From an uncultured Chthonomonas sp. (GTDB taxonomy: Bacteria > Armatimonadota > Chthonomonadetes > Chthonomonadales > Chthonomonadaceae), in NCBI GenBank assembly GCA_903859705.1, contig CAIONQ010000087.1, positions 1 through 39,852 on the forward strand: DNA of 39,852 nucleotides, read 5' to 3'. Made by a program: the position numbers and the translations under genes. Below are positions 5,412-29,898 of the stretch, in pieces. The notes under the pieces were generated by a model that saw only the letters and a program-made list of their open reading frames with translations, was not told the DNA's origin and did no database searches. Positions within the stretch are counted from its first letter, which is position 1; every line of letters begins with the position of its first letter.

Positions 5412-7841
5412 ATGGCGCATGCTTCTGGTGGTAAGAGAGCAAGGTCGTACATATTAACGCGGCAAGCACTTGATCTTGTTCGTAACACTCTACAATTGAA
5501 ATGGAACAAGAAAGTCACATACCTTGGTGGGGGCAAAGTGGCAGGGCGGCTGACTCGCGAAAAAATATCCCAACAACTTGAGATCAACATACATACTTGG
5601 GACAATATTAGCCGTAAGAAGGGCGTAGATAAGGATACGCTTGCACGTGTATTTAAAAGTCTTAATCTGGTATTGAAGGAAGAGTATTATATCCGTGCAG
5701 ATCAAGCATCGAAAACTGAAACTTCAGACAGTCTTTCACCGACATCAGATAACCAACCACTATTCGGCCGTGAAAAGGATATTGAGAAGGTTATAAACGC
5801 GGTCAATGAATACCGTTGCGTCACATTGACTGGGGCTCCGGGCGTTGGGAAAACCCAATTAGCGATCGCTGTTGGAAAGCTTCTCCAGGACAAGTGCCAG
5901 AACAAAGCCTGGTTTGTTGACCTGAGCACATTAAAACCCCGCGCATCGGTCGCCAATTTAGTAGCATCCGAATTTAATATCAAACAAGACGTTATAGTTG
6001 ATGAACTGCAGGCACATAACGAAGACGCAAGCATAGAAACAATTGTCAACGCGTTAAAGAATCGACAGTTGTTATTGATATTAGACAACGCCGAACATGT
6101 GTTAAAAGAGTGTGCAGCCTTAGTGCGCAAGCTACTGACGTCCAAGAGTGTTTACATATTGATTACAAGCAGAGAACCGCTTGCAAACGTCGAGGCCAAA
6201 AGCATACGTATTCGACCTTTGGACCTCCCGAAGAGAGCCGATATCGATGAATGCAGCTGCGAACAGCTCTTGGAATATCCATCCGTAGCACTATTAGTAA
6301 GCCGAATCCGCTTCCATGACGATCGTGATTGGTTCCGTTTTAGTGACGACAATAAACAATCTATTGTAACCATATGTGAACAGTTAGAGGGGCTTCCCTT
6401 GGCTCTAAAGTTAATGGCAGCCAATTGCGGAACGGTACCAGTACAACTGGACCACGTTGCCCGACAGCTCTACAGCAAAATCTATCGACCAAGCGTAGGC
6501 GATAAGCAACTGAAACGTCAGGATACATTGCAAGCAGCGATCGACTGGAGCTTCAACCTTCTCGAAGATCAACAGAAGATCCTTTTCGAAAGGTTGAGTA
6601 TTTTTACCGCTGGATGGACGCTGGAAGCAGCACACACAATATGTTGCTCTGAAGACCTAAACGCGGACGACATTGAAGACGCGCATGAAGCTCTACTTAA
6701 GAAGTCTCTCATTGAAGCGGACACTTCAATAACGCCGTTCAGGTATCGTTTTTTGAAACCTATACAAGAGTACGCAGTAAGGCTGCTCCGGCCCAAGGAT
6801 AAAGAGCTGGGTGATTTGCAGCTTGCTTATGTGGCGCATTATGCAGATTGGTCAGCTTCAGCTGAAAACGGACTTCGCTCTGCAGAGCAGGATTGTTGGA
6901 TTACAGTTCTGCACTCGGAATACCGCAATTTATGTACCGCGCTTGAGTTCGCCCTAGATCGAGACATGATTAGAGATGGCCTCAGCATTGCAGGTTCGCT
7001 AAGACGATTCTGGGACCGGTCCGGATATGTTGGTGAAGCTCGGGAATGGCTTGTAAAGCTTTTGAACGCTGCTAATGGCCAACTAACCGTTGAGCGTGTT
7101 CGCGCTACGTTGGCTTTGAACGAAATTCTATTCTGGAATCTCGAATATGCAGATATAGAAGACACCCTACGCTATTGCATCACGTATTTTGACGACCATG
7201 CATACCGGGCAGATGCCATCGAGGCAACGATCCTTTTGGGTTTGTCCACACAACTTCGTGGCGAAACCGATACCGGACTGAAAATACTTGATGAGACCTT
7301 AGACCGCTCATTGAATCTCAAAGACAAGTGGCTGGAGGCATATGCTAAATACAACCTCGCTCTGCCTTACTTTATGCAAGGACAGCTGGCGAAGGCGCTC
7401 TCTCTCGCGGAGGAAGGCACAGCCCTTTTTGAGCAATCAGACGACAAATGGTTCATAACGCACTCGCTTGCTGCCAGCGGCACAATCGCAATGGCGAGTG
7501 CAGATTCTGATAAGGCGATAGAACTCATAAAAAGAAGTCTGCATTATTGCGAGAAGTTTTCAGATTATTTCACCATGACATGGTGTTTTGATATCGTCGC
7601 TTTCGCATGGCATGCTAAAGGCGACGCTTTCCGTGCCCTGCAGACAATACGGATGGGCGATAACGTAAGGCAACAGTTGAACATCGAACGACCGCCGTTT
7701 TTGCAGGAGGGCTATGCACAGGCATTAGCAAACGCTATGGACTTATTATCGCAAGCCGACATTGAAATAGCCACTCGTGAAGGCCAGCGCATGACACTGG
7801 AGCAGGCATTTGAGTTCGCGATGCGGCCGCTTGAAGCATAG
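5412..7841 (+). CDS. STAND NTPase regulator: HTH, NB-ARC-like ATPase and helical repeats
   Basis: This 809-residue cytoplasmic signal-transduction NTPase belongs to the COG3903-like STAND group. The ATG follows an AGGAG site. Residues 1-95 hold an XRE-like helix-turn-helix (LTREKISQQL...TWDNISRKKGVDKDTLARVF). The ATPase core starts at FGREKDIE (~118) and has the P-loop GAPGVGKT (141-148), Walker B LLLILDNAEHV, a TSREPL sensor, GLPLAL, and a winged-helix segment after DTLQAAIDWSF (LSIFTAGWTLEAA). The C-terminal ~350 residues are tandem helical hairpins of TPR type. Such proteins use the repeat domain to sense a ligand and the ATPase to switch oligomeric state. Output here is probably DNA binding by the N-terminal HTH, since no nuclease, protease or TIR effector is visible. 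Its neighbours are a secreted hydrolase and a restriction operon, so it may regulate either or act in defence. Confidence 0.85.
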   Translation: MAHASGGKRARSYILTRQALDLVRNTLQLKWNKKVTYLGGGKVAGRLTREKISQQLEINIHTWDNISRKKGVDKDTLARVFKSLNLVLKEEYYIRADQASKTETSDSLSPTSDNQPLFGREKDIEKVINAVNEYRCVTLTGAPGVGKTQLAIAVGKLLQDKCQNKAWFVDLSTLKPRASVANLVASEFNIKQDVIVDELQAHNEDASIETIVNALKNRQLLLILDNAEHVLKECAALVRKLLTSKSVYILITSREPLANVEAKSIRIRPLDLPKRADIDECSCEQLLEYPSVALLVSRIRFHDDRDWFRFSDDNKQSIVTICEQLEGLPLALKLMAANCGTVPVQLDHVARQLYSKIYRPSVGDKQLKRQDTLQAAIDWSFNLLEDQQKILFERLSIFTAGWTLEAAHTICCSEDLNADDIEDAHEALLKKSLIEADTSITPFRYRFLKPIQEYAVRLLRPKDKELGDLQLAYVAHYADWSASAENGLRSAEQDCWITVLHSEYRNLCTALEFALDRDMIRDGLSIAGSLRRFWDRSGYVGEAREWLVKLLNAANGQLTVERVRATLALNEILFWNLEYADIEDTLRYCITYFDDHAYRADAIEATILLGLSTQLRGETDTGLKILDETLDRSLNLKDKWLEAYAKYNLALPYFMQGQLAKALSLAEEGTALFEQSDDKWFITHSLAASGTIAMASADSDKAIELIKRSLHYCEKFSDYFTMTWCFDIVAFAWHAKGDAFRALQTIRMGDNVRQQLNIERPPFLQEGYAQALANAMDLLSQADIEIATREGQRMTLEQAFEFAMRPLEA

Positions 7842-7920: not shown

Positions 7921-10900
7921 TCACGCCGCGTTCTTTGTAAAGCTGATCACTTTTGCGATGAGTTCGGTAACGTCGTTGTCGTTGAAGATGCCTTCTACAC
8001 CTGTGTTTGAGAAGTAGGTAAAGGGCTGATCGTAGAGTTTGCCGGGCTCCATTACGCCGTTGGCGGTAAGGTAATCAATAATGTTTAGTACAAAGTGTAT
8101 CTGGTTGGCATTGTAGCGCGATGTGTCTAAGAAGGTGGCGAATGCCTGCTGCACGGCCGCCATTTCGAGCCCGACTAAGCTTCTTACCAGTTTGCCGAGG
8201 CTTTGCTCCTGCCCGTATATGCTCAGGAACTGCTCTTTTGTGCCTTCGCCACCCAGGTTGTAGAGCATGTCTTCCAGCGTGTTAAGGTCTTCTGCAGTTA
8301 ATGGTACGTTTGTGCGCAGCTTTACGATTACGGCTTCGTTTTCATGCTGCCGCAGAAATGCCTGTACCTTCTTTTTGTACTGCGCCACATCTATTGCCGT
8401 GCCAAGGCCTTGCAGTACCAGTTCGTCTCCTGCACCTATGGCGTCTTCAAAATCGGTGTACAGCGATTTGCGGCCGTGCCTATCTATAAATTTCACAAGA
8501 TCGCGCAGGCGCCTGCGGGCTATTTCAAGGATGTCTACCGTTACATCCTGCCAGTATTCATCGCTCTGGATCTCCTGAATAAGCGGCATCTGTACTGCCA
8601 CCACCGGGATGGAGTGTTTTTGTTCCAGCAGGGCGGCTATTTCACAGGTCTGTTTCTGCAGGTTCGGCAGCGATCGGCCACTGTGCAGTACTGCCAGCTG
8701 TAGGTTAAGTATCAGCAGATCAAACTGGCGGGCCGTTATATCTTCCGGGTCCAGATCGGCTGGCAAAGATGCAAGGTTATCGGCAATCTCTTCTGCCTGC
8801 TGGCTGCTGAGTTTGTTCCAGGCTTCGCGGGCAGAGTAGGTTTCTACGTATTTGCGTTTGGGCCGCACTATAAAGTTGTTGAGGTTCATTGCGGCAACAG
8901 TTTTGTGCAGTGTGGTTGCAAGGTCTTCTGCAAGGCTTACGTATCCGCCGCCGGTTTCTGCCACCTTCTTTGCTGGCAGCGGTGCCGGTTCCTCTGGCCG
9001 GGGAGTAACCTCCTGAAGCAGCTCTAATCTGCGTAAAAACAGTTTTTCTGATAATCCGGCCTGGGCCGGCGCCTCCACTCCCTGCGGCATCGCCTGGAAG
9101 TACTCAAAGTTCTGGCAGTAATCAAAAACCGTAAAGTACTCTTTGTGCTGGCCGGGGCCAAATATATCTTTGCACAGGCGTGTGCCCCGGCCTATCATTT
9201 GCCAGAACTTGGTTTTGGAGCGCACCATTTTGAAAAACACCAGGTTCAGCACCTCGGGCACGTCGATGCCAGTATCGAGCATGTCTACGGAGATGGCGAG
9301 GTGTGGCGCGGAGTTTCGATCTGAGAATGCATCGATGAGACTCTGTGCATACTTTTCCTGATTATCGATAACGCGTGCGAAGGTGCCTTTTAGATGGGGA
9401 TAATTGATATCGAAGCGCTCTTGAATGAACTGAGCGTGGTTGTGGTTTTTGGCGAAGAGGATGGTTTTGCCCAGCCTGTCTCCGCCATCCACCTTCTGCC
9501 CATGCCGCATCAGGTGTTCCAACACTTTATCCACGGTGTCTTCATTAAATAGCCATTGGTTGAGGGCTGCCGCCTCTACCTTATCCGGCACGGTGCCTTC
9601 TTCATCCCAATCCAGCTCTTCCCACTGTTCTTTGTCTTCTTCGCTGAGTTCTGCATAGGTTATGCCCTCACGCTGAAATTTGAGAGGTACGGAGATTGCG
9701 CGGGGCGGCACCAGGTATTGCTCTGCAACTGCTTTTTCCAGCTCGTATGCGGCGGTTGGCACGCCAGTTTCCAGATCAAACAGCCGGTAGGTATTTTTAT
9801 CGATATCGGATTTTGGGGTTGCCGTGAGGCCAACCAGCAGCGAATCAAAATAATCAAAGATGGCACCGTACTTCTGGTAAACCGAGCGGTGCGCCTCATC
9901 AATAACCACCATGTCAAAATGGCCAGGACCAAAGCGGCGGCGGCCGCTCTTAAGGTCATCTATCATGCCCATAATGGTTGGGTAGGTAGATACATAAACG
10001 CGGCTGGTGGCCTCCTCCTGTTCCAGCACCAGGTTTACCGCATTGCAGCCGGGTAAGAAGGTTTTAAAGGCGTTGGTGGCCTGCTTTACCAGTGCAACGC
10101 GATCTGCCAGAAACAGAACGCGTTTTACCCGGTTGGCCCGCATTAACAGATCTGTGAGGGCGACCACGGTGCGGGTTTTGCCTGCGCCGGTTGCCATAAC
10201 AATGAGGGACTTTCGGTGGGCGGCTTCAAATGCATCACAAATCGCCCGGATCGCCAGATGCTGGTATGGGCGCTCTGCAATGGTGGTGTTGATAGCAAGG
10301 GATGCATGGGCGCGCCCGCTGTTGCGGCGCTGAATTAGCAGCTCCAGCTCGTCCTTTTTATAAAATCCTGCCACCGGGCGGGGCGGATAGTTGGTATCAT
10401 CCCACAGCCAGTGTTCATAGCCGTTGGTGTAGAAGATGATTGGGCGGCGGTCGAACTGCTTTTGCAGGCAATCCGCATACAGGGCTGCCTGCTGGCGGCC
10501 GATGCGGGCATCCTTTTTGGTGCGTTTGGCCTCTACCACTGCCAGGGGCAGGCCATCATCTCCCCAGAGCACGTAATCAACAAAGCCAATGCCTTTGTTG
10601 TTTGGCATGCCAGCAACCTGGTATTCGCGGTCTTCCGGGTTATCCAGCGGCCAGCCCGATTCGTGCAGAAGCAGATCTATAAAGAAGTCTCTGGTTTGCG
10701 CTTCGGAGTAATCGTGGGTATCTGGCGTGGCCGCATTTTGCTGCTTGATGCTCGCAATTTCGGCCCGCAGCTTATTAATCTCCGCATCCAGTTCGTCCGC
10801 CGTTTTGCTGGAATCTTCCAGCGCCTTTGCCTGGGCACGCATGGCGGCATCGCGCGCCTCCAGCTCTGCCTGCAGCTTCTGCATCTCTTGCTGGGTGGTG

Positions 10901-11358
10901 GCCCGTTGGGCGGCAGCACGCTTTGCCCCGGCAGAGAGCAGGCTGGGATCAAAGGCAATATCGGCTGTGGGCAGGGTGCCCACGGCAGAGTAGGTGCGGG
11001 CCAGCCAGTACAGGATGTGAAAAAGCTCTTTCACGGCCTGTTCGCTATCCGCTTGCTTGATGCTGCGGTTACTGTGCACAGCCTGGTTGCCCAGATCTTT
11101 TACCAGGCGGCATTTGGCAAAAATGGCCGGGCCTGCCAGATCTTTGAAGCTCTGTTCATGAATGAGCGCACTCAGCGAATCATCGTAAGGCCATTTCAGG
11201 GTTTCGTCACTCTCGTAAAGCCACTGCACCGCCAACTCCAGCGTGCGCCGGGCATAGAAGCACGAAGCCCGCGGGTCCAAAAGCGCGAGCGACTCGGTGC
11301 GCAGGGCATCTGCAGCAAGCTGCGGCCAGCTGGTTTTCAGGAAAGTGAAGTTGGACAT
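7921..11358 (-). CDS. hsdR: Type I restriction enzyme, motor/nuclease subunit HsdR
   Basis: HsdR joins HsdM and HsdS to translocate and cut DNA lacking the host methylation. The 1145 residues show an N-terminal DUF4145-like helical domain (1-140), a coiled coil (~150-207), and an HSDR_N nuclease with Asp261 and ExK (Glu276, Lys278). An SF2 helicase follows with Walker A ATGAGKT (389-395), the DEAH motif in VVIDEAHRS, and GLTATP. Motif VI lies in QMIGRGTRL. The C-terminus is the EcoEI_R_C-like helical region. The DUF4145 plus HSDR_N plus helicase order is typical of the EcoEI-like subgroup. The ATG lies six bases after the hsdS stop, in one operon. All catalytic motifs are intact, so the enzyme should be active. 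The operon is GC-richer than its neighbours, consistent with transfer. Confidence 0.95.
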   Translation of the reverse strand: MSNFTFLKTSWPQLAADALRTESLALLDPRASCFYARRTLELAVQWLYESDETLKWPYDDSLSALIHEQSFKDLAGPAIFAKCRLVKDLGNQAVHSNRSIKQADSEQAVKELFHILYWLARTYSAVGTLPTADIAFDPSLLSAGAKRAAAQRATTQQEMQKLQAELEARDAAMRAQAKALEDSSKTADELDAEINKLRAEIASIKQQNAATPDTHDYSEAQTRDFFIDLLLHESGWPLDNPEDREYQVAGMPNNKGIGFVDYVLWGDDGLPLAVVEAKRTKKDARIGRQQAALYADCLQKQFDRRPIIFYTNGYEHWLWDDTNYPPRPVAGFYKKDELELLIQRRNSGRAHASLAINTTIAERPYQHLAIRAICDAFEAAHRKSLIVMATGAGKTRTVVALTDLLMRANRVKRVLFLADRVALVKQATNAFKTFLPGCNAVNLVLEQEEATSRVYVSTYPTIMGMIDDLKSGRRRFGPGHFDMVVIDEAHRSVYQKYGAIFDYFDSLLVGLTATPKSDIDKNTYRLFDLETGVPTAAYELEKAVAEQYLVPPRAISVPLKFQREGITYAELSEEDKEQWEELDWDEEGTVPDKVEAAALNQWLFNEDTVDKVLEHLMRHGQKVDGGDRLGKTILFAKNHNHAQFIQERFDINYPHLKGTFARVIDNQEKYAQSLIDAFSDRNSAPHLAISVDMLDTGIDVPEVLNLVFFKMVRSKTKFWQMIGRGTRLCKDIFGPGQHKEYFTVFDYCQNFEYFQAMPQGVEAPAQAGLSEKLFLRRLELLQEVTPRPEEPAPLPAKKVAETGGGYVSLAEDLATTLHKTVAAMNLNNFIVRPKRKYVETYSAREAWNKLSSQQAEEIADNLASLPADLDPEDITARQFDLLILNLQLAVLHSGRSLPNLQKQTCEIAALLEQKHSIPVVAVQMPLIQEIQSDEYWQDVTVDILEIARRRLRDLVKFIDRHGRKSLYTDFEDAIGAGDELVLQGLGTAIDVAQYKKKVQAFLRQHENEAVIVKLRTNVPLTAEDLNTLEDMLYNLGGEGTKEQFLSIYGQEQSLGKLVRSLVGLEMAAVQQAFATFLDTSRYNANQIHFVLNIIDYLTANGVMEPGKLYDQPFTYFSNTGVEGIFNDNDVTELIAKVISFTKNAA

Positions 11359-11363
11359 AGGCT

Positions 11364-12515
11364 CTAATTCATGAAAAATGTATCATGTAGAGAGTGTATG
11401 AGCTCATCGAGGGCGGACAGTGAAGCGCTTAGCTGTTCGCGGGTTGCCTGAAAGGAGTTCTTGATCGCTACCCATTCACTTTGCACACGTATGGGCGGCG
11501 TTGGAATCTTTATTTCCCGGATGTCGACAAGGTGTAAGTTGGTCACGGTACCCGTTTTTGAATGCGCCCTTGCTTGCTTTAGGGCAAGGTCACTTTGGAG
11601 AAATGATTCGAGATATTCTCCCAAAATCACTCCTGGTTTCGGCTTTAAGAGGCACAGGCTTACAAAAATGCTGAATTCTTGTTGCCAATTTATGTACTTG
11701 GCGATGCCAATTGTTCCGTTTTTAGAATACAGAACGTCACCGGGTTCAGGTTTGCACCTTGCCGTAAGTGCAACATGCTCCTGCAACGGGATTCTCTTAA
11801 CCCTTGACCAGTCGATAGCAGCAGACTGGATGTCCGTAACCCTCAAAAATGGCACACCGTCTTCGACGTAGGTTGGAGTAAGGTGTGCTCCATCCGTGAT
11901 TTTGTCACACACGTCTGCCAGGCGCATTACTGTCCCGCCTGCAATGCTTGGATCGGGCAGCTTGCCGAGGAATACCGCCGTTTGCAGTTCCTCCAGCAGT
12001 TCGATGGTTCTCTGGCGCTTCTTGCGGAGCTCCTCGGCTTTATCGAGGATATCGGCGATGCGGCGCTGTTCTTCGAGGGGTGGGAGGGGGATCTCCATTC
12101 CCAAAAAAACGTCAACAGGCAGCGTCCGTCTTCGCGCGGTCGTGCCTCTGAGTTTGCTCTTGTAAAATTGTAGTGCATAAGGTGATCGCAGGACACGCTC
12201 TACGTATGGTGCGTGTACAACGGTTGGTGCGCATATATCCCAGATATCGTAAGCCGGGCTTACGATTGCTTCTGAGTACTTACGCTGAAATGCCAGGACA
12301 CCTTCATCGATTGGAAAGCTGACAACTAACTGATCCCATTTAACCACCTTGTACTGACTGGTATCGACACTGGCTATTCGCTTCTTGAACTTTGTGGCTT
12401 GATCAACTAACCCTTGATGCATTGTCATTGAGAGAATTGGGTATATTCCGTTCGCCGCACGGACGGACTTAGCGGGCCTTATTATTTCTTTAAGTCTCAC
12501 AGCGTACGGCTTCAT
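11364..12515 (-). CDS. hsdS: Type I restriction-modification specificity subunit HsdS
   Basis: HsdS recognises the bipartite DNA target for the methylase and the nuclease. The 383 residues show the usual two-fold layout. The first target-recognition domain is at about 1-150. A central conserved helix follows (PLPPLEEQRRIADIL, then a Lys/Arg/Glu-rich coiled coil to ~190). The second recognition domain (about 195-345) begins with RLADVCDKITDG, and the closing helix follows IPTPPIRVQSEW. The first half lacks the classic N-terminal WxxxxLG motif seen in many HsdS proteins, though it keeps the fold-level pattern. The ATG overlaps the hsdM stop by four bases (ATGA), which indicates translational coupling. 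The recognition sequence cannot be predicted from the protein by eye. Confidence 0.93.
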   Translation of the reverse strand: MKPYAVRLKEIIRPAKSVRAANGIYPILSMTMHQGLVDQATKFKKRIASVDTSQYKVVKWDQLVVSFPIDEGVLAFQRKYSEAIVSPAYDIWDICAPTVVHAPYVERVLRSPYALQFYKSKLRGTTARRRTLPVDVFLGMEIPLPPLEEQRRIADILDKAEELRKKRQRTIELLEELQTAVFLGKLPDPSIAGGTVMRLADVCDKITDGAHLTPTYVEDGVPFLRVTDIQSAAIDWSRVKRIPLQEHVALTARCKPEPGDVLYSKNGTIGIAKYINWQQEFSIFVSLCLLKPKPGVILGEYLESFLQSDLALKQARAHSKTGTVTNLHLVDIREIKIPTPPIRVQSEWVAIKNSFQATREQLSASLSALDELIHSLHDTFFMN

Positions 12516-14035
12516 ATTAGCCCCTCCAGCTGTTTTAGCGCGGTTGTTATCTCTACCTCCATGACCTGAAGCTCAGCGAGAATTTCCGATGGACTTCGGG
12601 CCTGCACTTGCAAGTTAGCGGTCACTTTGTATCTGCTAATGCTCAGGTCGTATTGGTTCTCGATGATCTCAGTGCGAGGAATTGAAAAGCTCTGTTCAGT
12701 GCGGGCGTGCGAACGTTCAGTGGTGTTACGCCCTGTCCACCGACGGACGATGTCTGGCAGGTTGTTTTTTGCGTGCTCCTCTTCCGAAAGCTCCGGTCTG
12801 TTGGGGCCGAGCTTCTCTTCTGGAAGCAGGGGTTGGCGCTTATCGTCCAGGCTCCAGCCATCGGCGCGCATATCGTAAAACCATACGTAATCGGTGCCGC
12901 CAGAGTTGGTTTTGGTGAAGATGAGGATGGCGGTGGATACCCCGGCATAGGGTTTGAATACGCCGGATGGCAGCGAGATAACGGCCTCGAGCTTATGATC
13001 TTCCACCAGTTTCTGGCGCAAGGTTTTGTGCGCGTTAGAGGAACCGAAGAGCACACCATCCGGAACGATGACGGCGGCGCGGCCACCTGTTTTGAGCATC
13101 CGAATAAACTGCGCCAGAAACAGCATCTCCGTTTTCTTTGTTTTTACGATGCGCTGCAGCTCTTTGGAGCAGCTTTCGTAATCCAGAGATCCCGCGAAGG
13201 GTGGGTTTGCAAGCACAACCGAGTAGTTTTCTTCATCGCCCGCATGGTCTTGTGCAAGGGAATCTCTGTAAACGATGTTCGGGTTTTCAATGCCGTGCAT
13301 CAGCAGGTTCATGCTGCCGATGCGGAGCATGGTTCTATCAAAATCGTAGCCGTTGAGCAGCGTGGAGTTGAAGTGCTTTCGCTTTTGCTCATCGTGGAAA
13401 AGGCCGGGGTGGTTGTGCTGTAGGTACTCTGCGGTGGCAACCAGGAAGCCTGCGGTGCCACAGGCGGGATCGCAAACGGTATCGGCCGGGGTTGGGCTCA
13501 TCAGCTCCACCATAAGCTTAATGATGTGGCGAGGGGTGCGGAACTGGCCATTTTGCCCGGCAGAGGCGATTTTGCCGAGCATGTACTCATAGAGATCGCC
13601 CTGCGTATCCCTATCCTCCATGGGGATGTGATCCAGCATATCCACCACGCGTGAAAGCAGGTTGGGTGTGGGAATGGTAAAACGGGCATCCTGCATGTGA
13701 TGCGAGTAGGTAGAGTTCTGGGTATCTGCCTGCAGATTACGTATAAAAGGGAACACCTTCTCGGCAACTACGGTGTACATTTCGCCGGGCTCAAAATGCT
13801 TAAAGTGCGACCAGCGCAGCATCTGCCCTTCTGGGCCAGCCGGGAAGATCTGCCGCGCAATGGGAGTACCCAGTCGGTTTGCTTTACGCTCCTCCAGGGT
13901 GAACAGATCATCCAGCCGGCGGATAAAGAGCAAAAACGTCATCTGCTCCACCACTTCCAGCGGATTTGCGATTCCGCCCGCCCAGAAAGCATCCCAGATC
14001 CGATCAATTTGGTTCTTAAGCTCGCCAGTTATCAT
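12512..14035 (-). CDS. hsdM: Type I restriction-modification DNA methyltransferase HsdM
   Basis: HsdM is an N6-adenine methyltransferase that protects the HsdS-defined sites. The 507 residues contain the N-terminal HsdM helical domain (1-150, with FLLFIRRLDDL), AdoMet motif I DPACGTAGF (189-197) and catalytic motif IV NPPF (277-280), with GYDFD between them. The C-terminal part carries the usual LPSGVFKPYAGVSTAILIF segment. It is first in the operon hsdM-hsdS-hsdR. The upstream region lacks an obvious strong promoter; a TAAAAT about 30 bases before the ATG is the best -10 candidate. The start is preceded by a weak GGAA. Confidence 0.95.
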   Translation of the reverse strand: MITGELKNQIDRIWDAFWAGGIANPLEVVEQMTFLLFIRRLDDLFTLEERKANRLGTPIARQIFPAGPEGQMLRWSHFKHFEPGEMYTVVAEKVFPFIRNLQADTQNSTYSHHMQDARFTIPTPNLLSRVVDMLDHIPMEDRDTQGDLYEYMLGKIASAGQNGQFRTPRHIIKLMVELMSPTPADTVCDPACGTAGFLVATAEYLQHNHPGLFHDEQKRKHFNSTLLNGYDFDRTMLRIGSMNLLMHGIENPNIVYRDSLAQDHAGDEENYSVVLANPPFAGSLDYESCSKELQRIVKTKKTEMLFLAQFIRMLKTGGRAAVIVPDGVLFGSSNAHKTLRQKLVEDHKLEAVISLPSGVFKPYAGVSTAILIFTKTNSGGTDYVWFYDMRADGWSLDDKRQPLLPEEKLGPNRPELSEEEHAKNNLPDIVRRWTGRNTTERSHARTEQSFSIPRTEIIENQYDLSISRYKVTANLQVQARSPSEILAELQVMEVEITTALKQLEGLI

Positions 14036-26589: not shown

Positions 26590-26666
26590 GGCAGAGTAGC
26601 TCAGTTGGTTAGAGCACACGGTTCATACCCGTGTTGTCCAGAGTTCGAGTCTCTGCTCTGCTACCA
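26590..26666 (+). tRNA. tRNA-Met (anticodon CAT)
   Basis: The 77 bases fold into a full cloverleaf. The 7-bp acceptor stem has a terminal G-T pair (26590-26596 with 26656-26662). The D stem is GCTC/GAGC, the anticodon stem CACGG/CCGTG with loop TTCATAC, and the T stem CAGAG/CTCTG with loop TTCGAGT. A73 and an encoded CCA follow. The anticodon stem lacks the three consecutive G-C pairs of initiator tRNA, so this is an elongator. A lysidine-modified tRNA-Ile with the same CAT anticodon cannot be excluded by eye. Confidence 0.95.
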
Positions 26667-26681
26667 ATTCACAGCAAACAG

Positions 26682-26707
26682 GCGTGGGCATAAGCCCACG
26701 CTTTTTT
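26682..26707 (+). terminator. intrinsic terminator of the tRNA gene
   Basis: GCGTGGGC (26682-26689), loop ATAA, GCCCACGC (26694-26701), then six T residues. It lies 15 bases past the CCA end. Confidence 0.9.
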
Positions 26708-26725: not shown

Positions 26726-26743
26726 AAGTGCCCCTCAGTCCCC
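26726..26743 (+). repeat. left copy of the 18-bp direct repeat flanking the primase-helicase gene
   Basis: AAGTGCCCCTCAGTCCCC is identical at 26726-26743 and 29229-29246. The two copies enclose one gene and almost nothing else. This copy lies 59 bases past the tRNA and 33 bases before the ATG of the enclosed gene. No third copy was noticed in the window. Confidence 0.85.
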
Positions 26744-26776
26744 GAAAATTTGAGTTGCGTATCCACACATGCTGCC

Positions 26777-29224
26777 ATGGATAACCCATCCGATCCTAAA
26801 GAGGTTCTGGTTCGAATAGAGGAGCTCAAGTACCGGCTTGAGACACTCGACTTTGAACGTACCAACATTCAGCGGCAATTAGAGCTGCTTACGAATCTCT
26901 TGAACGCCCCGGCTCCCATAAAACCCGCGCAGTCAGAGTTATCTCCAGACGCCAAACTCACTCTGTTTCGAAGGCTTTTTCGTGGGCGTGAAGATGTTTA
27001 TGCTCGCCGGTGGGTAAGTGCTAAAACTGGCAAGGCGGGTTATTCCCCTGTATGTGAGGGCGGATGGCAGGCACATACGCAACCGATAGCCGAACGCAAA
27101 TACCTTCCATTAGATGATGCTATCATTCGTGCTCACCTTCGTGGTGATGATCCAGATTGGCGTGGACGTGACTTTGTAGTGGGTGTTTACCCGCTGCTTT
27201 TGGATGAGACTTGCTGGTTTGTAGCGGCCGATTTTGACAAAGCTGGTTGGCAAAAGGATGCCCGTGCTTATGCAGATACATGCGCTTTGCTTGGAATCTC
27301 TGCCGCAGTTGAGCGATCAAGATCTGGGAATGGGGCACATGTATGGGTCTTCTTTGAACAACCTGTTCCCGCCGTGCTTGCCCGCAAACTGGGCACGCTG
27401 GTACTAACCAGGGCAATGGAAATGCGACCGGATATTGGCCTTGATTCCTACGACAGGCTGTTTCCTAACCAGGATACGATGCCCTCTGGCAATTTTGGCA
27501 ATCTCATTGCCCTGCCGTTGCAGGGGCTCGCTCGAAAACATGGCAATAGCGTTTTTGTGGATGCAGAATTCAATCCATATCCAGATCAAATTGCTTTCCT
27601 TGCAACCGTTGAACTAACTCCCCTGAACCGTTTATGCCGCATCGTAGAAGAAGCCGGCAAAAACGGACAAATAGTTGGCGTTAGAATGGTTTACACCGAT
27701 GAGGATGCCGCTGAGCCCTGGAATGCGCTGCCTACAGCTATCTCAAAGAAGCTAACGATTTCTGAGCCCCTTCCAGAGAAGATATCTGTAGTTATCGGAA
27801 ATCAGATTTATGTAGACAAAACAAACTTGCCGCCACGCCTCATCAATGCTCTTATCCGCACGGCAGCATTTCAAAACCCAGAGTTTTATAAAGCACAGGC
27901 AATGAGGTTTCCAACATTTGGTAAACCCAGGGTCATCGCATGCGCAGAAGACTTTCCGGGGCATATTGGGCTACCTCGTGGCTGCCAGGATGAAATAAGT
28001 CATTTGTTTTCAGATCTCGGAGTAGCTGTAGATTGGATGGATGAACGTTATCCTGGCCAGCCGATAGATGTACAGTTTCTTGGAACGCTGCGGCCCGAAC
28101 AGGAAGCAGTATGCGAGAAGCTATTGGAGCACGAAACTGGAGTACTGGCAGCAACTACAGCATTTGGGAAGACAGTTATTGCAGCAAACTTAATTGCTGC
28201 CCGCAAAGTAAACACGCTTATTTTGGTGCACCGCCAGCAGTTGATGGATCAGTGGGTAGAACGATTGGCAGAGTTCCTATCTATAGAGCGTAAGCAGATT
28301 GGCACAATAGGTGGTGGTAAACGCAAACCATCAGGCATTGTTGATGTTGCGCTGATACAATCTATGCATCCTGGTGGCACGGTAGATAATATCATTAGAG
28401 ATTACGGTCACCTTGTAGTGGACGAGTGCCACCACCTTTCAGCACATAGTTTTGAGCAAGTGGCTCGAGCCTGCAGGGCAAGGTTTATAACTGGCCTCTC
28501 GGCTACAACAACGCGTAAAGATGGGCACCATCCAATAATCTTTATGCAGTGCGGCCCAATTCGTTACACAGTAGATGCCCGGCAGCAGGCTGCCGAGAGG
28601 CCATTTAACCACAGAGTAATAGTGCGTTCCACACGCTTTGCAGAAGGTGTTGAACTTACCGACACGTCAATCCAGGCCATCTATAACCAGTTATCCCGAG
28701 ATCAGCGGCGCAACCAGCAAATAGTTGATGATGTATGCACGGCCCATAAGCAAGGCAGATCTGCGCTGGTGCTTACAGAGAGAACAGAACACCTGGATAA
28801 CCTGTTGGAACTGCTACAACCGCACATTCCGAACCTTATTGTAATGAAAGGCGGAATGGGTCGGAAGCAACGCCAGAGCATAAAAGAGCAAATAGATGCG
28901 CAACCCGAGGGGCAGCCACGCCTGATACTTAGCACCGGAAAATATGTGGGCGAGGGCTTTGATGATGCAAGGCTTGATACCCTTTTCCTGGTTATGCCAG
29001 TGTCATGGCGCGGAACATTGGCCCAGTACGCTGGCCGCCTGCACAGGCTTCATCACAACAAAACAGAAGTCCAGGTCTACGACTATGTAGATTCTAATCT
29101 GCCGATGCTGACCCGTATGTTTGAGCGGCGTGTTAAGGGTTACAGGGCAATAGGATATCAAGTTGCCCCGATGTTGAATGATCTGACACTTGAATCGGAC
29201 CTGCAATTAACTGCCCCACAGTAA
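26777..29224 (+). CDS. archaeo-eukaryotic-primase / SF2 helicase fusion, TOTE-conflict type
   Basis: A large cytoplasmic fusion of 815 residues. Residues 8-45 form a coiled coil. About 55-300 are an archaeo-eukaryotic primase domain with DFD (Asp152, Asp154), SGNGAHVW (183-190) and FPNQD (229-233), the metal and nucleotide motifs of that family, as I remember them from the TOTE conflict-system primases. About 435-790 are an SF2 helicase: Walker A TTAFGKT (460-466), DECH box (549-552), LSATTTR, and motif VI in YAGRLHRL. All motifs are intact. I chose the ATG at 26777; a TTG at 26750 would add nine residues. No good ribosome site is visible for either. TOTE proteins are proposed to act in conflicts between mobile elements and hosts. 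Here the partner endonuclease of the classical system is absent. The gene is less GC-rich than its neighbours. Confidence 0.9.
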   Translation: MDNPSDPKEVLVRIEELKYRLETLDFERTNIQRQLELLTNLLNAPAPIKPAQSELSPDAKLTLFRRLFRGREDVYARRWVSAKTGKAGYSPVCEGGWQAHTQPIAERKYLPLDDAIIRAHLRGDDPDWRGRDFVVGVYPLLLDETCWFVAADFDKAGWQKDARAYADTCALLGISAAVERSRSGNGAHVWVFFEQPVPAVLARKLGTLVLTRAMEMRPDIGLDSYDRLFPNQDTMPSGNFGNLIALPLQGLARKHGNSVFVDAEFNPYPDQIAFLATVELTPLNRLCRIVEEAGKNGQIVGVRMVYTDEDAAEPWNALPTAISKKLTISEPLPEKISVVIGNQIYVDKTNLPPRLINALIRTAAFQNPEFYKAQAMRFPTFGKPRVIACAEDFPGHIGLPRGCQDEISHLFSDLGVAVDWMDERYPGQPIDVQFLGTLRPEQEAVCEKLLEHETGVLAATTAFGKTVIAANLIAARKVNTLILVHRQQLMDQWVERLAEFLSIERKQIGTIGGGKRKPSGIVDVALIQSMHPGGTVDNIIRDYGHLVVDECHHLSAHSFEQVARACRARFITGLSATTTRKDGHHPIIFMQCGPIRYTVDARQQAAERPFNHRVIVRSTRFAEGVELTDTSIQAIYNQLSRDQRRNQQIVDDVCTAHKQGRSALVLTERTEHLDNLLELLQPHIPNLIVMKGGMGRKQRQSIKEQIDAQPEGQPRLILSTGKYVGEGFDDARLDTLFLVMPVSWRGTLAQYAGRLHRLHHNKTEVQVYDYVDSNLPMLTRMFERRVKGYRAIGYQVAPMLNDLTLESDLQLTAPQ

Positions 29225-29228
29225 CTGC

Positions 29229-29246
29229 AAGTGCCCCTCAGTCCCC
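29229..29246 (+). repeat. right copy of the 18-bp direct repeat
   Basis: Identical to 26726-26743. It begins four bases after the stop codon of the primase-helicase gene. It also contains the stop codon (29238-29240, minus strand) and last codons of the neighbouring 73-codon gene. The last 14 coding bases of the primase-helicase end contain TGCCCCACAGT, a near match to TGCCCCTCAGT of the repeat itself. Confidence 0.85.
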
Positions 29247-29459
29247 ATGCCGCCATATTTCAGAACCAGCCAGGTAGGTAATAATATCTGGAACCGGTTT
29301 GCCTATTTTATCAGAACACTCTTTAATCCTGTTTGCCAGGGCCCAAATTGAGAGGAAGCAGGCCGCTATTTCGTCTGAATCTTCTGCCTCTGGAGACTCT
29401 TTTACGTAACTTACGCCTATCTGGGGCCTTACAATATTACAGATCACCTGTTCTGCCAT
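29238..29459 (-). CDS. small hypothetical protein ending inside the 18-bp repeat
   Basis: This 73-residue protein begins at an ATG preceded by AGGGAGA with good spacing. It is helical, acidic in the middle (PEAEDSDE) and has no signal peptide or membrane segment. No family is recognised. It follows the next upstream gene by 13 bases on the same strand, so the two probably form an operon. Its stop codon TGA and last two codons lie within the right copy of the 18-bp repeat, so its reading frame survived the neighbouring insertion unaltered. Confidence 0.65.
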   Translation of the reverse strand: MAEQVICNIVRPQIGVSYVKESPEAEDSDEIAACFLSIWALANRIKECSDKIGKPVPDIITYLAGSEIWRHGD

Positions 29460-29472
29460 CTCGCTCTCCCTG

Positions 29473-29898
29473 TTAAATTGCGCGCATGCGGTTGTTCTTA
29501 GGGTTGCTCTCTACCTCTGCCAGGCCAAGGTGTTTCAGAACGGGTGGCACGTACATGCCGAAGCGCCCTCGAAAACCTTTTTTAATGCCGTACCAGCCGC
29601 CAACGGGGTTGTCTTCTGCGCGCCCCCATGCCTCAACGGTGCCAGGGGCAGCAGGTTTTTGCTCATCGGCGCTACCAAGCAGCATCCAATCGCCATGCTC
29701 TTTTAGCATGGCATGCAGGTCTTCAATACATCGCAACTGATACAGCAACTTTGTGCTGCCAACCTGCACAACCAGCGCGGGCGGATCCAGAGTTTCATCT
29801 CGATACGCCGTGTACTCGGATGATCCGGGGGGCGTTTTCAATACCCACGGGCTTGTTTTGGTACCTTCGCCAGTAACGGTGGATTCTTCTTGCGGCAT
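29473..29898 (-). CDS. conserved hypothetical protein (recalled as DUF6855)
   Basis: A soluble 141-residue protein. I recognise the family from memory by its strict pattern: GTKTSPWVLKTPPGSSEY near residue 12, DPPALVVQVGSTKLLY, IEDLHAMLKEHGDW, GTVEAWGRAEDNPVGGWYG and a terminal LGLAEVESNPKNNRMRA. I recall it as DUF6855, unverified. It is found as a stand-alone small protein in many soil bacteria, and no function is known. The ATG at 29898 has no strong ribosome site. It heads the two-gene operon with the 73-codon gene. Confidence 0.8.
   Translation of the reverse strand: MPQEESTVTGEGTKTSPWVLKTPPGSSEYTAYRDETLDPPALVVQVGSTKLLYQLRCIEDLHAMLKEHGDWMLLGSADEQKPAAPGTVEAWGRAEDNPVGGWYGIKKGFRGRFGMYVPPVLKHLGLAEVESNPKNNRMRAI

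Follow-up and report, generated by a model that had tools for sequence, protein, structure and literature searches.

The genome of an uncultured Chthonomonas sp. contains a solitary gene for an AEP-TOTE primase with an XPB-like SF2 helicase (26777..29224 on the plus strand of the window, that is, of the whole 39,852-nucleotide stretch of contig CAIONQ010000087.1 that was analyzed), which alone fills the interval between two identical 18-bp direct repeats. The locus has the look of a tiny genomic island that is probably immobile, not of a new kind of mobile element. The explanation that we prefer, and consider reasonably probable, is a horizontally acquired, minimal, integrase-less island, probably fixed by now, in which the 18-bp repeat is the scar of an insertion at the 3' end of the 73-codon gene on the right.

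The reading frame is open from position 26750, has its first in-frame ATG at 26777, and runs for 815 codons from that ATG to a stop codon that ends at 29224. Its product was identified by Pfam profiles, PDB sequence matches and alignment: an AEP-TOTE domain (PF22548, E=4.5e-87) is followed by an SF2 helicase (ResIII, DEAD, Helicase_C), the second half of the protein matches XPB/RAD25 helicases in the PDB, and part of the AEP half matches chains 7nqd/7nqf, which we take to be structures of CAPP, the CRISPR-associated prim-pol. With the PrimPol_Msp model the score is 84.7, below the cut-off of 200. The motifs DFD, SGxGxHVW, AFGKT, DECHH and QYAGRLHR are present, and the conserved columns of a 25-sequence alignment are kept with few, conservative exceptions (V158, I281, V454), which indicates that the gene is intact; in its domain order and intact catalytic motifs it has the class features of an AEP-TOTE primase-helicase (the non-CRISPR CAPP_A helicase type). 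No cas genes were found among the genes scanned around it. Its base composition deviates, with a GC3 of 0.453 where the opp operon has 0.595 and the DUF1501/PSCyt genes have 0.616, and the two small genes on its right, the 73-codon gene (29238..29459, minus strand) and a DUF6855 gene (29473..29898, minus strand, recognized by profile search), have a GC3 of 0.482. The primase-helicase gene and these two small genes both look acquired, to judge by sequence. The accessory DUF6855 gene is present in 5 of the 61 genomes searched, its own genome included, and no relatives of it were found in viral contigs.

The 18-bp sequence AAGTGCCCCTCAGTCCCC occurs at 26726..26743 and, identically and in the same orientation, at 29229..29246 (both plus strand), with a spacing of 2503 bp; the likeness of the two copies extends to 27 nt at 85%. 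The left copy lies 59 bases past the end of a tRNA-Met (CAT) gene (26590..26666, plus strand, predicted by ARAGORN), the upstream neighbor of the putative insertion, which has a terminator hairpin at 26680..26703 on the same strand. The primase-helicase gene fits tightly, its ATG 33 nt past the left copy and its stop codon 4 nt short of the right copy, and no second gene lies between the repeats. An earlier note on this DNA had reported a TOTE-type primase-helicase as the only gene within a perfect 18-bp direct repeat, 2503 bases from repeat to repeat and 59 bases past a tRNA gene with its terminator, and this description proved accurate in domain call, gene content and both repeat coordinates.

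The repeat pair is well beyond chance. Genome-wide (6.24 Mb assembled in 179 contigs, 95.7% complete), AAGTGCCCCTCAGTCCCC has exactly two copies, both at the primase-helicase gene, which rules out the common dispersed motif that the same note had raised as an objection to its own reading. When 3 mismatches are allowed, two further background places are found, which does not exceed the yield of a reversed-pattern control. In 20,000 Markov resamples of the flanks, no common word was longer than 15; an exact repeat of at least 16 bp in the 100-bp flanks was found for 0 of 592 control ORFs (at least 150 aa, from 604 kb of the same genome); and exact direct repeats of at least 18 bp at 0.3-6 kb spacing occur at about five places in 669 kb of the genome, these base rates being taken from a 604-669 kb sample. 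One of the others (L159, copies 1.9 kb apart) was set aside as, by eye, a repeated terminator-like hairpin.

The last two codons and the stop codon (GGG GAC TGA, minus strand) of the 73-codon accessory gene, the presumed target according to homolog comparison, lie within the right copy. The family of this 73-aa protein has no Pfam match; 7 further genomes of the phylum have a homolog (at best 39%), and the best one, in genome G023, is also 73 aa long. Since the gene in the window thus has the normal length of its family, the right copy reads as resident sequence and the left copy as the duplicate. The 18-bp repeat would then be a duplicated target or attachment core, and the left copy is what integration at the 3' end of a gene, or a staggered-cut insertion, would leave behind. 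Near another homolog of the small gene (1489-1710 of locus L107) lies an ATPase-like ORF that appears defense-related by eye.

The sequence of events that we propose is that an acquired, solitary primase-helicase gene would have settled in an accessory spot between tRNA-Met and the small gene; that this insertion would have created a second copy of 18 bp at the 73-codon gene's 3' end, either by site-specific integration (leaving an attL/attR core) or by staggered-cut insertion; and that the delivering recombinase may have acted in trans or may since have been lost. The predicted junction of the empty site would join the flank ...GAGTGATTAAAAGTGCCCCTCAGTCCCC directly to ATGCCGCCATATTT...

In each 18-mer, two AGT(G)CCCC half-units stand about 10 bp from each other, and one copy lies where a promoter is expected, the other directly after the stop codon, features also compatible with a duplicated regulatory or protein-binding site that flanks the gene by accident and is not an insertion scar. 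The gene's own 3' end, which resembles the right copy (CTGCAATTAACTGCCCCACAGT / CTGCAAGTGCCCCTCAGT), could be counted in favor of such a site, but no sigma-70 promoter match was found in the region, the 18-mer overlaps the coding end of the neighboring gene, and homologs have no such site beside them; we regard this explanation as quite unlikely. The resemblance at the 3' end (window 29197-29246) is perhaps an old local duplication.

Several origins of the repeat were considered and discarded. Comparison ruled out the 3' end of a tRNA as its source. Terminal inverted repeats were sought just inside the duplication and not found, the best ungapped inner match lying below the null median, which rules out the ends of a DNA transposon or IS. 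No hairpin or attC-like fold was found in the repeat. As the repeat has neither identity to a tRNA 3' end nor a fold nor inner inverted repeats, and by eye its surrounding bases show no likeness to dif (28-bp dif-like sites), the class of recombinase cannot be named.

The single-gene interval contains no recombinase gene, and a search of the genome for tyrosine recombinases found full-length ones of the XerC/XerD kind only, along with a 145-aa fragment on another contig. With no evident recombinase candidate in the present genome, the island is probably fixed, and independent movement is unproven. Because the gene fits so tightly, little room is left between the repeats for a lost recombinase gene, and this counts against our preferred explanation, as do the featureless repeat, the lack of such a repeat at nearly all other homologous loci, and the fact that neither an empty site nor an excised form was seen.

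That perfect and unique repeats hug a single intact gene might suggest a genuinely mobile one-gene unit, as the earlier note had considered. Such a unit would move between its two 18-bp sites by means of a recombinase supplied from elsewhere, or would circularize, with a predicted circle junction of ...CAGTAACTGC-AAGTGCCCCTCAGTCCCC-GAAAATTTGAG...; in Thermus, two elements are known to share one integrase (PMC7693054). Against this stand the single copy in the genome, the restriction of full-length tyrosine recombinases to the Xer type, the lack of any homolog with a comparably tight repeat, and the rarity of the site: in a 257-Gb genome collection, AAGTGCCCCTCAGTCCCC was found in 3 other stretches, which is not above the roughly 7 matches estimated to occur by chance (2 x 257 Gb / 4^18). 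The protein has a weak, partial counterpart in two of these three genomes (E=8.6e-67 and 3.2e-15). We therefore consider a mobile one-gene unit very improbable.

The survey of repeats at homologs comprised 60 TOTE primase-helicase loci with usable flanks, supplemented by wider and gapped searches. Only the window locus (1 of 60) has an exact repeat of more than 11 bp no farther than 300 bp from the gene, and a recurrent one-gene mobile version is not supported. A tRNA gene lies within about 300 bp of the primase-helicase gene at 4 loci, the window included. The wider and gapped searches yielded three more islands bounded by direct repeats: a 4.7-kb island (L214, 5554-10269) in which the TOTE gene and a DUF4062/HATPase_c_4 gene lie between two copies of a tRNA-Leu 3' end that are identical over 20 bp; a 3.4-kb island (L210, 808-4835) of a TOTE gene and a PIN-type pair inserted where a MobA-like gene ends, the 3' end of that gene recurring on the far side as a diverged copy (140 bp at 77%); and a TOTE relic (L063) between 105-bp, 87% identical copies of the 3' half of tRNA-Lys with its terminator, 2.5 kb apart. 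No integrase was found among the proteins scanned in these three islands (the other small ORFs of L063 were outside the scan); as parallels to the window they count in favor of the explanation that we prefer. Two further repeats near homologs look like something else: an IS110 transposase gene is annotated near one (L119), and the other, 532 bp at 76%, probably represents paralogous genes (L093). As a side observation, at L158 (13402-18063) the 34-bp word ACTCGCGCTGTAACTCTGAGCTTGCGAAGAGTGT is repeated around a stretch of about 4.5 kb, with a 29-bp partial copy nearby.

A truncated TOTE gene joined to an N-terminal (SAM-domain) piece of an integrase lies beside tRNA-Gln in genome G055 (L061), which has two further TOTE relics. 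Besides being a parallel to the island in the window, it could be read in favor of another origin for that island, namely the decay of a larger integrative element: a tRNA-adjacent island with an integrase would have lost all but the primase-helicase gene by internal deletion. AEP genes are indeed documented on integrative elements and islands with att repeats at tRNA genes (PMC5862659). We nevertheless think such decay unlikely here, because the gene fills the interval (with 33 nt and 4 nt to spare) and both ends of the deletion would have had to fall exactly at the repeats, and because no integrase remnant was seen between them. In all, G055 has three TOTE copies or relics (L061, L062, L063), two of them beside tRNA genes; observed in passing, these sequences suggest repeated gain and decay of TOTE genes in that genome.

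The distribution of the gene is consistent with the acquisition that we prefer. No full primase-helicase homolog is present in one same-genus genome and 15 other genomes of the family that were sampled, and the gene is therefore not a fixture of this place, with the same repeats, among these relatives, an outcome that the note had named as refuting its reading. The upstream opp operon shows good conservation in several relatives (identity roughly 62-87%), yet the surrounding stretches that were retrieved contain neither a tRNA gene nor a primase-helicase gene; the same-genus genome has tRNA-Met in another setting, and linkage of the opp operon to tRNA-Met is absent in every relative examined. 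Synteny is thus broken in the relatives, and no syntenic one was found that could show the empty site. In the phylum as a whole the gene is patchy, with a homolog in 8 of 291 genomes.

Elsewhere on the same contig, 12 kb from the primase-helicase gene, is a defense-like cluster that consists of a type I restriction R-subunit-like gene (7921-11358, minus strand; ResIII, HSDR_N, EcoEI_R_C), two further large ORFs behind it (stretch 7921-14035, minus strand), and an adjoining STAND/NB-ARC-TPR ATPase gene (5412-7841).

Outside the phylum the family is common. Homologs were found in 45 of 395 genomes of another phylum and on 98 plasmids at E<=1e-60, and 1,714 of 5,426 E. coli genomes have a match, mostly partial, with 681 covering at least 80% of the gene. 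Two of the short E. coli matches that were opened are annotated as frameshifted or partial, and NCBI names the E. coli homologs after TOTE. Phage matches all cover less than 80%, and the listed ones comprise the helicase half only. The neighbors vary from locus to locus, the single primase-helicase gene being the constant unit: some homologs adjoin TniB/TniQ transposon genes, others three tyrosine recombinases in a row, AbiEi/AbiEii or other toxin-antitoxin genes, and those of E. coli are found in AlpA/YfjI/Gp2 islands. The protein is thus of a known, widespread accessory kind that rides on plasmids, Tn7-like transposons, satellites and tRNA islands. When CAPP-type primases occur outside CRISPR loci, they mostly have a helicase domain and reside on mobile and transposable elements (PMC8211822). 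Mobile elements with a solitary PrimPol-helicase gene are thus on record, as are AEP genes in islands with attachment repeats at tRNA genes (PMC5862659), and the note's suggestion that the unit is possibly undescribed is not supported.

The locus is of interest because a widespread, hardly studied primase-helicase has been placed in very small islands, and because islands without a visible recombinase recur (four loci), a recurrence that makes it testable whether the protein is a passive defense cargo moved by the integrases of other elements. A more adventurous proposal, which we rate as extremely improbable, is a one-gene unit whose primase-polymerase would help it to insert (microhomology-primed synthesis at a break is one example, with target duplications of variable length) or that would be moved at an 18-bp site by the host Xer or a trans recombinase. 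If that were true, the three other small recombinase-less TOTE islands could be larger forms of the same habit, and a one-gene unit shown to move would be among the smallest integrative elements known.

Comparison with known systems places the gene more closely. TOTE, which PMC12458937 expands as TPR, OB, TBP, Effector, has in common with the window the AEP-TOTE primase domain (PF22548). The window differs in that its genome has no TBP gene (PF00352) by a search that was positive in 4 archaeal controls, and in that no TPR-OB (TPR-cold-shock) partner and no effector operon were found among the adjoining genes (opp operon, tRNA-Met, 73-aa gene, DUF6855). With no TBP in the genome, what is shared is the primase domain and not the system; the gene is not a complete TOTE conflict system, and the "TOTE-type conflict unit" of the earlier note reduces to that domain. 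The architecture of an AEP domain followed by a helicase is the same as that of non-CRISPR CAPP_A type 3 (PMC8211822), from which the gene in the window differs by standing alone between 18-bp direct repeats with no element backbone adjoining; unlike CRISPR-associated primase-polymerases, it has no cas1/cas2 among the genes scanned around it.

The three islands found in the survey (L214, L210 and L063) differ from the window in that their repeats are the 3' ends of tRNA or target genes and that they carry one or more other genes, L063 being a relic only, but they resemble it in having the same primase-helicase family bounded by direct repeats within 2.5-4.7 kb, with no recombinase seen. Ppol/Hel of the Thermus element ICETh2 (PMC7693054) and PrimPol-PV1 (PMC5862659) are likewise primase-helicases carried by repeat-bounded integrative elements at tRNAs; ICETh2, in contrast to the window, carries an integrase and other genes, and the types given for its helicase domains are other than the XPB-like SF2 type of the window. 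Ppol of ICETh2 limits the uptake of environmental DNA, its loss raising transformation 100- to 1000-fold without impairing replication of the element (PMC7693054), and by analogy this makes a defense-type role the leading guess for the gene described here. To judge from its family and neighbors, the protein is most likely an accessory, defense-type enzyme that acts on invading or stalled DNA by priming or extension and by unwinding, and not an integration enzyme.
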